From Nitrosarchaeum sp. (GTDB lineage: Archaea > Thermoproteota > Nitrososphaeria > Nitrososphaerales > Nitrosopumilaceae), in assembly GCA_003569705.1 (NCBI GenBank), contig BGOU01000007.1, positions 124,001-188,000 on the forward strand: 64,000 nt of DNA, written 5' to 3'. Within the stretch, counting starts at the first letter, position 1; each line of letters begins with the position of its first letter. Shown here one piece after another: positions 15,194 to 28,900 of the stretch. A program made the translations under genes and the position numbers. A model generated the notes under the pieces. It was not told the DNA's origin. It ran no database searches and saw only the letters and a list, made by a program, of their open reading frames with translations.

Positions 15194-15268
15194 CGGGCTC
15201 GGTCGGATTTGAACCGACGACCTAACGCTCCGCAAGCGTTCGCACTATCCAAGCTATGCAACGAGTCC
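15194..15268 (-). tRNA. tRNA-Arg (anticodon GCG)
   Basis: The minus strand folds as a 75-nt cloverleaf: acceptor GGACTCG/CGAGCCC, D stem GCAT/GTGC, anticodon stem AACGC/GCGTT with loop TTGCGGA (anticodon GCG, reading CGC), 5-nt variable loop, and T stem GTCGG/CCGAC with loop TTCAAAT. CCA is not encoded and no intron is seen. The third acceptor pair is an A-C mismatch, which is unusual (see findings). Confidence 0.93.
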
Positions 15269-21897: not shown

Positions 21898-22680
21898 ATG
21901 GTATCGGGTCATCAGATTCGACTTAATCGAATTCTTAGAAAGGGAAAGATGTTGTGTATTCCAATGGATCATGGTATTTCTAATGGACCTATCGAAGGTC
22001 TCACAGACCCTGCTTCCATAATTTACAAATGTGAAACACATGGACTTACAAGCGTGATAATTAACAAAGGAATTCTAAAAACATTACCAAAACCACCCAA
22101 GATTGGAGTTTTGGTTCATTTTTCAAGTAGTACATCATTATCATTATCTCCTAATCGTAAGATGTTAACAGGTACAGTAAAAGAAGCAGTCAGAATGGGG
22201 GCAGATGGGGTTTCATTACATATCAACATAGGAGGAAAAGAAGAACCAGAAATGCTAGAACAACTTGGAATGACAGCAGATCAATGTCACGAATGGGATA
22301 TGCCACTTTTGGCAATGATGTATCCAAGAGGAGAGAACGTCAAGGATCCACATGATCCTGAAATTGTAGGACACGTTGCAAGGATAGGCGCAGAATGTGG
22401 AGCAGACATAGTAAAAACACTGTATACTGGAGACATAGATTCATTTGCAAAAATTGTAAAAAGTACTCCAGTGCCAATAGTTATTGCAGGTGGACCAAAA
22501 TCAAAAACAGATTTAGATATTCTTCAAATGACGGAAGATGCCATGACAGCAGGAGCAAAAGGAGTAACATATGGCAGAAATATTTTTGCACATAAAAGAC
22601 CAGAAAAAATTGTAGAAGCATTAGCATCAATAATTTTCAAAAATGAATCCGCAAAGGAAGCAATGAAAAAAATTGAGTAA
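21898..22680 (+). CDS. 2-amino-3,7-dideoxy-D-threo-hept-6-ulosonate synthase (archaeal shikimate route)
   Basis: This class I aldolase-like enzyme (MJ0400 type) makes the first intermediate of the archaeal DAHP-independent route to dehydroquinate. Key features are 'CIPMDHGISNGPIEGL', 'HINIGGKEEPEMLE', 'AMMYPRGENVKDPHDPE', the Schiff-base region 'ADIVKTLYTGD' with K173, and 'IAGGPKSKTD'. 260 aa. It opens the aromatic operon; the next gene (dehydroquinate synthase II) overlaps it by 8 nt, matching the two-enzyme pair first described in Methanocaldococcus. Confidence 0.92.
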   Translation: MVSGHQIRLNRILRKGKMLCIPMDHGISNGPIEGLTDPASIIYKCETHGLTSVIINKGILKTLPKPPKIGVLVHFSSSTSLSLSPNRKMLTGTVKEAVRMGADGVSLHINIGGKEEPEMLEQLGMTADQCHEWDMPLLAMMYPRGENVKDPHDPEIVGHVARIGAECGADIVKTLYTGDIDSFAKIVKSTPVPIVIAGGPKSKTDLDILQMTEDAMTAGAKGVTYGRNIFAHKRPEKIVEALASIIFKNESAKEAMKKIE

Positions 22681-25363: not shown

Positions 25364-26217
25364 TGGTAAAAGCAAAGGCCACAGTGCACGGTGCAATATC
25401 ATTGGTAAATGCAATTGCAACTCAAAAAGGTGCAACATTAGGTATCGAGTTAAAAGTTGATGCAACAGTTGAAACAAGCCCAGGAAAAGGGATTAGTATC
25501 AAATCAGAAAACAAGAGTCTAAGTTCAAGATTAATCAACAAGACGATAGAAAAAATCCTTTCGAAAAAAGAACTAGAAGAAAACAAGATCGAAGTCACAC
25601 TAGATTCAGAAATACCAACAGGGTATGGATTAAAAAGCTCCAGTGCAATTTCATCTGCCGTATCTCTTGCATGCTCTAAAATTTTTAAACCAAAATTAAC
25701 AGACAAACAAATTTTACTTGCAGGAGTAGAGGCATCAATAGAGTCCAAAGTGAGCATAACAGGTGCATATGATGACGCATGTTCATGTTATTATGGAGGA
25801 TTCAATGTGACAGACAATTTTAAGAAAAATCGTATCACTTCAGAGAAAGCACCTGTAGATTTAATTGCCGTAATATTTATTCCGAAAAATAGAAAACGTG
25901 GAAATTTAAAAAATCTAAAAATTCTTTCAGCAGTGTTTGAAAATGCATGGGAGTTAGCTAAAAAAGCAGATTACTGGAATGCAATGAATATCAACGGATT
26001 AGCAACAGCTGCAATATTAAATTCTGATCCAAAAATAATTATAAATTTACTGGAAAAAGGTGCATATGGGGCATCAGTTTCAGGAAATGGTCCATCAATT
26101 GCAGCAATAACAAAAAAAGAAAATGAATCAAATATCAAAAAAGTGTTTTCAACATTAGAGGGAAATGTAATAGTTTCCAAAGTCAATAATAAAAAGGCAG
26201 AAGTTCATGAATTGTAA
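25363..26217 (+). CDS. aroK: Shikimate kinase, archaeal GHMP type
   Basis: Phosphorylates shikimate. This is the GHMP-kinase form found in archaea, unrelated to bacterial AroK. The ATP-binding loop is 'PTGYGLKSSSAISSAVSLAC' (about residues 86-105), and the late glycine-rich motif is 'GAYGASVSGNGPSIAAI'. The N-terminus 'MVKAKATVHGAISLVNAIAT' is typical. 284 aa. It shares one base with the aroE stop and overlaps aroA by 11 nt. Confidence 0.93.
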   Translation: MVKAKATVHGAISLVNAIATQKGATLGIELKVDATVETSPGKGISIKSENKSLSSRLINKTIEKILSKKELEENKIEVTLDSEIPTGYGLKSSSAISSAVSLACSKIFKPKLTDKQILLAGVEASIESKVSITGAYDDACSCYYGGFNVTDNFKKNRITSEKAPVDLIAVIFIPKNRKRGNLKNLKILSAVFENAWELAKKADYWNAMNINGLATAAILNSDPKIIINLLEKGAYGASVSGNGPSIAAITKKENESNIKKVFSTLEGNVIVSKVNNKKAEVHEL

Positions 26218-27475
26218 AGTAGAAAAATCAAAAATATCAGGACACATTACATGTCCAGCGAATAAGAGTTATTCTCATAGAGCAATTTTTCTTGCATCAC
26301 TTGCAGGAAATAATAGTAAATTAGACAACGTATTGTTTTCTGCAGATACTATTGCAACAATTGAAGCATGTAGAAATTTTGGAGCAGAAATTGAAGAGAC
26401 AAACACAACAATCATTGTCAAAAAACCCATAAAAATGGGCATAATCGTGCCTGAAATTGATGCAAAAAACTCAGGTACTACCATTAGAATTGCATCTGGA
26501 ATTGCAAGTCTATTCACAAGAGAGATCACACTATCAGGAGATTCAAGTCTTCAAAAAAGACCAATGCAACCACTGCTAGACGCACTTGAAAGTATAGGAG
26601 CTAAGTGTAATTCGACAAACGGAATGCCACCCATCAAAATAACTGGAAGAATTTTGGGGGGAGATGTTTCAATTCCAGGAAACTTTTCAAGTCAATTTAT
26701 TTCTGCATTATTAATTTGTGCACCATTAACAGAAAAAGGAATTAATTTAACCATAGAGGGAAATTTAGTTTCAAAACCATATCTAGATGCAACTATTGCA
26801 ACAATGAAAAATTTTGGAGTTACAGTACAAACACTAATCCCATACAAAAAATACAGCATCGCACCTCAAGTATACAAACCATCTACATTCACAGTTCCAA
26901 TGGATTTTTCAAGTCTAGCACTACTTCTTTCAGCATCAGTATTAAATGGGGAAGATGTCATAATTCATGGTAGAATGGGGAACTTACCTCAAGGAGATAA
27001 AGTCTTTATCGACATCATAGAACAGTTGGGAGTAAAAGTTTCAATAAAAGAAGATCAAATATCAATTCAGTCACCAAAAAAACTTAACGGAGGACGATTT
27101 GATTTAAGTAATTCACCAGACCTACTTCCGCCACTTGCAATTCTAGCATTAAAAACAACAAATCCTATTGAAATCATAAATGTGAAACATGCAAGATTAA
27201 AAGAGACAGACAGAATTTTAATTTTAGCTAGAGAACTAGTCAAAATTGGAATCAAAGTCCAAGAAAAAGAAGACGGATTAATTTTAGAGTCACCAAACGA
27301 ATCAAGAGGTGCATTATTGAATTCTGAAAATGATCATAGATTATTCATGGCATTTTGCATATCTGGAATGTATGTAGGCAATTGCATTGTGACAGATCAT
27401 GAATCAGTTGCAGTATCATATCCAGATTTTATCAATGAGATGAATAGATTAGGTGCAAAAATTCTAGTACAATAA
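26207..27475 (+). CDS. aroA: EPSP synthase (3-phosphoshikimate 1-carboxyvinyltransferase)
   Basis: Adds enolpyruvyl from PEP to shikimate-3-phosphate. Family blocks: 'CPANKSYSHRAIFLASLAG', 'AKNSGTTIRIASGI', 'LSGDSSLQKRPMQPLLDAL', 'SSQFISALLI', 'SPDLLPPLAILAL', 'HARLKETDRI' and 'ENDHRLFMAFCI'. 422 aa. Last gene before the 327-bp gap that carries the structured RNA candidate. Confidence 0.94.
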   Translation: MNCKVEKSKISGHITCPANKSYSHRAIFLASLAGNNSKLDNVLFSADTIATIEACRNFGAEIEETNTTIIVKKPIKMGIIVPEIDAKNSGTTIRIASGIASLFTREITLSGDSSLQKRPMQPLLDALESIGAKCNSTNGMPPIKITGRILGGDVSIPGNFSSQFISALLICAPLTEKGINLTIEGNLVSKPYLDATIATMKNFGVTVQTLIPYKKYSIAPQVYKPSTFTVPMDFSSLALLLSASVLNGEDVIIHGRMGNLPQGDKVFIDIIEQLGVKVSIKEDQISIQSPKKLNGGRFDLSNSPDLLPPLAILALKTTNPIEIINVKHARLKETDRILILARELVKIGIKVQEKEDGLILESPNESRGALLNSENDHRLFMAFCISGMYVGNCIVTDHESVAVSYPDFINEMNRLGAKILVQ

Positions 27476-27499
27476 AAAATCAATCTTAAAAAATTAATT

Positions 27500-27605
27500 T
27501 AAAGTTAAGAGGCGCGACCCTGTATAGAGTGAAAAGCATTCTCCTCACCCGCAACGCCTTTGCGCAGATAACATGTATTTTTCGCAGGGCCGCGCAAATT
27601 ATTTG
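27500..27605 (-). ncRNA. Candidate structured RNA in the aroA-aroC gap
   Basis: A GC-rich island in AT-rich DNA. An 11-bp helix closes it (27585-27595 with 27512-27522). Inside are a 10-bp hairpin (27541-27550 with 27527-27536, loop of 4) and a 5-bp hairpin (27560-27564 with 27550-27554). At four positions the pairs are G-U on the minus strand but A-C mismatches on the plus strand, so the RNA should be transcribed from the minus strand. A possible minus-strand TATA (TAAATATG, about 27626-27633) and T-runs past the 3' end (27485-27500) fit an independent gene. I do not recognise a known family. Confidence 0.55.
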
Positions 27606-27802
27606 TTAGAATTTGCATGTTTTTGCATATTTACTATACGTTATCATTATATTTAAGAATTATTTATAATTATTACAAGTAATTTGAAGAAAAAGCATAA
27701 TTTTTAATCAACATAAAAAGTAACCAAAATAGGGCATAATTTAAGAAATTTTTCAATATTTTACATAATGAGGAATTATAAGCATCAATTTACAGTTACA
27801 AT
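27606..27802. promoter_or_regulatory. AT-rich promoter region for aroC and the minus-strand RNA
   Basis: AT-rich sequence with no ORF. AATTATAA at 27774-27781 lies 21 nt before the aroC GTG at 27803, a leaderless-type spacing. Confidence 0.4.
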
Positions 27803-28900
27803 GTGTTGCCGGGAAGTTCAATTGGTCAGCGTCTTGTGTTAACTAGTTTTGGTGAAAGTCACGGTAAATCCATAGGGGCTGTTTTAGACGGTTGTCCAGC
27901 AGGATTAGAAATAGATGAAAAAGAAATTCAAAAAATGCTAGATCTTAGAAAACCAGGTCAATCACTGATTTCTACACAACGTAAAGAGGGAGATATTGTA
28001 GAAATTGTTTCAGGAGTCTTCAGAGGGCATACCACTGGGGCACCAATCACAATGATAATTTGGAACAGTGATCAAAAATCAACAGATTATGAAAATTTGA
28101 AAACAAAGCTCAGACCAGGACATTCAGATTATCCCGCCATGATGAAATATAATCATTTTAACGATTACAGGGGAGGTGGTAGATTCTCTGGAAGATTAAC
28201 TGCCACTCATGTAATGGGCGGTGCAATTGCAAGGAAATTATTAAAAGTAACATTAGGTGTTGAAACAAATTCATTCACAACACAAATTGGAAAAATAAAA
28301 ATGGAAAACAAGTTTGACGAAAAAATGATTAATTCAATTTATAAAAATGAAGTAAGATGTCCTGAAGAGAATACAGCAAAAAAAATGAAGGAATCAATAT
28401 TAGATGCCAGAAAAAAAGGAGATTCACTTGGAGGAATAATCGAATCAATCACTACAAATGTACCAGTGGGTATAGGAGAACCAATTTTTGGGTCATTAGA
28501 ATCTGATTTGAGTAAAGCAATATTCTCAATCCCATCTGTAAAAGGAATAGAATTTGGTTCTGGATTTGAAGGGTCTAAACTGTATGGTTCAGAAAACAAT
28601 GATCTATACACCATAAAAAAAGGAAAGATAATTACAAAGACTAACAATTCGGGAGGGATTTTAGGCGGAATATCAAACGGCATGCCAATAACAATAAGAA
28701 TTGCATTCAAACCTGCATCATCAATAGCACAGAAACAAAGTACTGTAGACATTAAAACCAAAAAAATCACAATATTACAAGTAAAAGGAAGACACGATCC
28801 ATGTGTAGTTCCAAGAGCACCCCCAGTAGTAGATTCACTGGTGGCTCTAACTTTGGCAGATCATGCTCTTTTATCCGGAGCAATCAAGCCTGTATTATAG
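27803..28900 (+). CDS. aroC: Chorismate synthase
   Basis: FMN-dependent final step to chorismate. Signatures: 'LTSFGESHGKSIGAVLDGCPAG' region at the N-terminus, 'STQRKEGDIVEIVSG', 'RPGHSDYPAMMKYN', 'DYRGGGRFSGRLTA', 'NSGGILGGISNGMPI' and 'GRHDPCVVPRAPPVV'. 365 aa. Starts at GTG (an out-of-frame ATG lies 2 nt upstream). The next gene starts 4 nt after the stop. Confidence 0.95.
   Translation: MLPGSSIGQRLVLTSFGESHGKSIGAVLDGCPAGLEIDEKEIQKMLDLRKPGQSLISTQRKEGDIVEIVSGVFRGHTTGAPITMIIWNSDQKSTDYENLKTKLRPGHSDYPAMMKYNHFNDYRGGGRFSGRLTATHVMGGAIARKLLKVTLGVETNSFTTQIGKIKMENKFDEKMINSIYKNEVRCPEENTAKKMKESILDARKKGDSLGGIIESITTNVPVGIGEPIFGSLESDLSKAIFSIPSVKGIEFGSGFEGSKLYGSENNDLYTIKKGKIITKTNNSGGILGGISNGMPITIRIAFKPASSIAQKQSTVDIKTKKITILQVKGRHDPCVVPRAPPVVDSLVALTLADHALLSGAIKPVL

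Follow-up and report, generated by a model that had tools for sequence, protein, structure and literature searches.

A minus-strand RNA gene between aroA and aroC represents a multi-copy structured RNA family of Nitrosopumilaceae with a conserved, probably leaderless micro-ORF

The gap between aroA and aroC in a Nitrosarchaeum sp. genome encodes a real, undescribed minus-strand RNA of ammonia-oxidizing archaea, and this RNA is one paralog of a multi-copy family of free-standing RNA genes found across the Nitrosopumilaceae. The transcript itself is predicted, and no RNA data support it. The gap lies in the window, by which we mean the whole stretch of 64,000 nucleotides that was analysed (Table 1). 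A previous sequence-only reading had proposed a structured RNA under selection on the minus strand, which is now strongly supported by compensatory changes, a conserved promoter, and the lack of any Rfam match. The interval it gave, 27500-27605, does not cover the whole conserved unit, whose start is at 27628, and the 5' hairpin and the tiny ORF had been missed. The observation is larger than first claimed, as it comprises a multi-copy family and a conserved, probably leaderless micro-ORF.

The region was described as a GC-rich island, and indeed its GC content is 0.49 at 27500-27599 vs 0.17-0.37 in the surroundings. The minus strand folds with an energy of −38.9 kcal/mol (z −2.77; 3/200 dinucleotide shuffles equally good), while the plus strand reaches only −29.5 kcal/mol (z −0.52; 59/200). 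The resulting architecture is the closed multi-helix structure already proposed, with an 11-bp P1 enclosing P2 and P3. The five irregular pairs of the window copy (P2 included) read G-U on the minus strand and hence A-C on the plus strand. The strand argument drawn from such pairs was right: among 90 distinct homologs, 98.1% of the pair cells can pair on the minus strand vs 87.2% on the plus strand, and 295 cells are G-U vs only 10 A-C. The candidate TATA box and T-runs are also in place, and a run of at least five T within 60 nt after P1 occurs in 81/91 class I homologs (defined below), against a shuffled mean of 50.

Table 1. Features of the window RNA gene and its surroundings, and positions of related copies (G000, the genome of the window)
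Feature	Position	Strand	Remarks
RNA gene	27628 to about 27480	minus	Between aroA and aroC
aroA	26207-27475		EPSP synthase
aroC	27803-28900		Chorismate synthase
TATA box TTAAATA	27650..27656	minus	First base 28 nt upstream of ATG
ATG	27626..27628	minus	Predicted transcription start site and leaderless start codon; TATA spacing fits a start at its A
Micro-ORF ATGCAAAAACATGCAAATTCTAACAAATAA	27599..27628	minus	MQKHANSNK*; 9 codons
Hairpin PA, 5' strand (AAATT)	27610..27614	minus	PA 98.0% paired, compensatory change in 3/5 pairs
Hairpin PA, 3' strand (AATTT)	27596..27600	minus	Overlaps stop codon
P1 5' strand GCGCGGCCCTG	27585..27595	minus	P1 98.9% paired, compensatory change in 8/11 pairs; 3 nt past stop codon
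Conserved joining strand CGAAAAATACATGTTATCT	27566..27584	minus	Largely invariant among aro-locus copies
P2 hairpin	27554..27565	minus	Variable sequence; 95.8% paired, compensatory change in 4/4 pairs
P3 hairpin GGGTGAGGAG-AATG-CTTTTCACTC	27527..27550	minus	98.3% paired, compensatory change in 7/10 pairs
P1 3' strand CAGGGTCGCGC	27512..27522	minus	Pairs with P1 5' strand
Two T6 runs	27488-27493 and 27474-27479	minus	Probable terminator, from sequence; converge on aroA 3' end
Class II copy, window's genome	G000:C8:35691-35816		R2 match
Class II copy, window's genome	G000:C3:211727-211856		R2 match
N. maritimus SCM1, three copies	22398-22527, 488160-488277, 690171-690297	all plus	Model searches

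BLASTN retrieved the element from 25/61 relatives, weak partial matches included. A covariance model built from 15 copies (R1) defines class I, and its search identified this class in 110/250 Nitrosopumilaceae genomes, nearly always as a single copy. Compensatory changes in relatives, the check that the sequence-only reading had named, were found in 22 of the 30 pairs across 90 distinct copies, spread over all four helices, and none of 500 shuffles equalled this value. The figure leans towards the model, since the alignment was fitted to it; in a structure-blind alignment, 10/30 pairs showed compensatory changes and the shuffles never equalled the score. In genus g9, P3 is rebuilt, from GTGAGGAG-AATG-CTTTTCAC to GGCAAGAG-AATG-CTTTTGCC. 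A further pairing, between nucleotides 8-13 and CATGTT of the joining strand, was discarded: it holds without mismatch in much of the genus of the window and is broken elsewhere. Single copies can be lost: copy L072 (G194) is decayed, with both ORF and fold broken, and at the aro locus of G004 only the P1 3' strand is left (L015, a remnant). G004 retains two class II copies.

Three weak R1 matches (G034, G092, and G114) share the class I layout and add to it an inner helix (GCAGAAC/GTTCTGC) and a hairpin (GAGAG-GNAAT-CTCTC). The model built from these divergent paralogs (R2) defines class II and matched 226/250 genomes of the family, in 18/22 genera, mostly one to four times per genome; covariation within class II involves 9/27 pairs. 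As R2 also recovers the window RNA (E 4.7e-7), the two classes are homologous. Model searches found one copy in Cenarchaeum symbiosum A, and pattern scans gave matches in Nitrosopumilus, Nitrosarchaeum, Nitrosotenuis, and Nitrosomaritimum. Outside the Nitrosopumilaceae, no match emerged from the 400 genomes of the order that were searched, and more diverged copies could escape such a search. Two class II copies (L211 and L232) come from records titled Nitrososphaeraceae, which are either mislabelled metagenome-assembled genomes or members outside the family. The window's own genome was searched by model only; there, G000:C3:209727-213856 and G000:C6:14427-18556 (L171 and L172) share 99.6% identity over 4.1 kb, so that contig C6 also bears the class II copy of C3, probably reflecting strain variation or an assembly duplicate.

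The sequence-only reading placed the RNA antisense in an aromatic operon gap. The position holds, and four genera have the RNA in the aroA-aroC gap, the location of most class I copies, with transcription opposed to both genes; the RNA is, however, not specific to aro genes. In genus g9 it adjoins a pair of genes resembling RNase Z and Sir2 (names from our reading of the sequences), and aro-specific regulation was rejected on this ground. Other loci involve an SDR/142-aa protein and purP. The conserved protein of ~142 aa has no Pfam match and ends a few nucleotides from class II RNAs, downstream of them, in many genera (e.g., L162 and L163). In L008 and L009 (G009 and G002), where the RNA-aroA side is intact, an additional ~1.2 kb separates the RNA from aroC, and in L089 (G203) the matches to aroA are fragmented, which suggests that the gene is broken or carries an insertion. 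Considering both classes, a WTAAATA box precedes the ATG by 28-29 nt in 208/217 unique homologs. This promoter moves along with the RNA to other loci, which indicates an independent RNA gene, and the conserved TATA box at different loci satisfies one criterion for a dual-function small RNA, a free-standing transcript with its own promoter, although the transcript was not observed.

From the spacing between TATA box and ATG, the transcript should be leaderless. Model position 1 is ATG in 207/214 unique homologs and GTG in 4, and the frame that opens there spans exactly nine codons in 211/214 and eight in 2/214 (the 214 sequences comprise the two classes, with nine weak matches omitted and three class II copies counted in both sets). 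It closes with TAA in 125 cases, TAG in 45, and TGA in 44, and the other two frames have no comparable length regularity. The stop codon lies 3-4 nt upstream of P1 in 220/234 copies. On an aroA-based tree, several positions of the ORF change 10-18 times, and nine changes of the stop codon were inferred, each to another stop, while its T never changes. The purines of the stop site are partly explained by pairing, as the class I stop codon overlaps hairpin PA. Furthermore, the ORF is intact in 135/138 unique 30-mers (by class, 65/67 and 70/71, vs column-shuffled means of 60.7 and 56.0), and in neither class did any of 2,000 column shuffles equal the observed value; this test is inflated, because the shuffles ignore phylogeny. 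One of the sequences scored as broken, L076, reads MLRDIKSIK* and failed only because its R1 match begins 2 nt late. L147, L184, L185, and L165 form a subgroup in which the TATA spacing favors reading the ORF as eight codons, with near-identical duplicates in G005. A second tiny ORF, within P3 (GAGGAGAATG, MLFTLYRVAP), was rejected: it is kept in close relatives only, and in other genera compensatory and loop changes destroy the frame (e.g., ATG CTT TAG in L017, and AAAG loops).

What is conserved is the predicted start of the ribosome, the length of its travel, and the position of its stop relative to P1. Since ORF length and spacing to P1 are kept and the amino acids are not, the passage of the ribosome appears more important than the peptide. 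At termination, a ribosome shields about a dozen nucleotides downstream, which would suffice to occupy the P1 5' strand, and this favors a fold coupled to translation. On this basis, a ribosome would initiate at the 5' ATG of the leaderless transcript and, on terminating at the micro-ORF stop, would cover the P1 5' strand; the folding of the 3' domain would thereby report translation. We therefore put forward a free-standing family of regulatory RNAs in which the RNA fold is linked to translation of the micro-ORF by ribosomes, a mechanism inferred without RNA, ribosome, or mutant data, for and against which we see even chances. Its parts differ in strength. Translation of the micro-ORF as a leaderless message, inferred in the absence of ribosome data, we regard as probable. 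A trans-acting role for the folded domain, be it regulatory or as a small RNA associated with ribosomes, is a weaker and tentative inference; no target or partner was identified. More specific, and speculative, is the proposal of a new kind of archaeal RNA, a free-standing transcript in which the leaderless ORF of fixed length would have the sole task of positioning a ribosome at the closing helix, and which would act in trans as a sensor of translation.

The conserved ORF could also be read without translation, as part of a purely noncoding RNA in which ATG and stop are by-products of promoter and RNA-structure constraints. The poor conservation of the amino acids, with codon position 2 the most variable, and the location of the stop codon in or beside helices agree with this explanation, which we nevertheless consider unlikely: constraints of that kind do not readily account for an exact length shared by two divergent classes whose 5' hairpins differ, with all three stop codons in use. 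Moreover, L108 and L109, which lose the ATG at codon 1, have an in-frame ATG at codon 2, and in the eight-codon variants L165 and L156 the difference amounts to one full codon. Conversely, the nonapeptide might be the product of a tiny mRNA whose folded part is a stabilizing 3' UTR. The leaderless start and intact ORF would fit, as would the tendency of class II peptides towards M-x-K-D-I-x-x-I-D; class I peptides, however, differ widely while the RNA fold covaries strongly, and we give this possibility little credit.

The genomic context bears on two other explanations. In 153/160 copies having a neighbor, the next gene is convergent, often a few nucleotides from its stop. Such an arrangement could suit a cis element, namely an antisense RNA, terminator, or insulator for the convergent neighbor (aroA in the window). 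This appears improbable, as the neighbors vary by locus (aroA, purP, the 142-aa protein, and others) and the conservation of the fold far exceeds what a terminator needs. The same orientation implies that there is no cis target gene, and the criterion for a cis riboswitch or leader attenuator, a co-directional downstream gene, is unmet. A mobile or selfish repeat, MITE-like or virus-borne, would be compatible with several copies at different loci and with the duplicates in G005, and is very hard to sustain given the retention of the same loci across genera, the strong selection on the fold, and the lack of matches to viral contigs in pattern scans, on which virus-borne origin was rejected.

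No described family was found to correspond to the window RNA. The open-access literature searched yielded neither an account of an RNA like this one in Nitrosopumilaceae nor a report of any small RNA family for them (subscription journals and preprints were outside the scope). The main text of a 2010 structured-RNA survey does not mention these archaea (PMC2864571), and a passage of another report notes one conserved noncoding RNA, unnamed there, common to N. limnia and N. maritimus (PMC3043068). Its membership in the family cannot be excluded, though it is more probably RNase P or SRP RNA. The sequence-only reading had recognized no known family, and an Rfam 15 search of the window agrees: above the gathering threshold it returned only a tRNA at 15194-15268, nothing overlapped the window RNA up to E 5, and nine class I and II loci had no match. 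Archaeal RNase P RNA (RF00373) was rejected as an identity, as the genome has its own at G000:C7:99913-100191 (192.7 bits). An H/ACA guide RNA was also rejected, as no ACA was seen ~3 nt after the stem in alignments inspected by eye; the sequence after P1 is C followed by TCTTAAC, TCTTACC, or TTTTAC.

The Nitrosopumilaceae rank with the most abundant ammonia oxidizers of the ocean, and a nearly universal multi-copy RNA, with three copies in the cultured strain SCM1, is a concrete entry to RNA regulation in this family. If micro-ORF translation controls the fold, these RNAs would make a clean system for testing the coupling of leaderless translation and RNA folding where there is no downstream gene. 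In leader-peptide attenuators such as trpL and ermC, the translation of a short ORF decides the fold of the adjacent RNA, as it would here; unlike them, the window family lacks a co-directional downstream gene in nearly all copies and has no repeated sensor codons. Dual-function small RNAs such as SgrS/SgrT and RNAIII/hld likewise carry an ORF and a structured regulatory part in one transcript, but their peptides are longer and conserved, whereas the window family keeps only the length and position of the ORF. That the ORF is conserved yet the peptide sequence is not bears on the functional peptide, a criterion for dual function. Among archaea, Tan1 of marine Thalassoarchaea (marine Euryarchaeota) is an abundant structured noncoding RNA of unknown function (PMC5069720); it resembles the window family as a structured RNA of a marine archaeal group, and differs in its length of 229 nt and in belonging to another phylum (no sequence comparison was made). 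Ribosome-associated small RNAs are reported in Haloferax volcanii, some encoding small proteins and most without coding evidence (PMC12482152). These too are archaeal small RNAs that in part bear ORFs; no homology to them has been shown, and the ORF of the window family is set apart by being leaderless, limited to 8-9 codons, and placed directly against a conserved helix.
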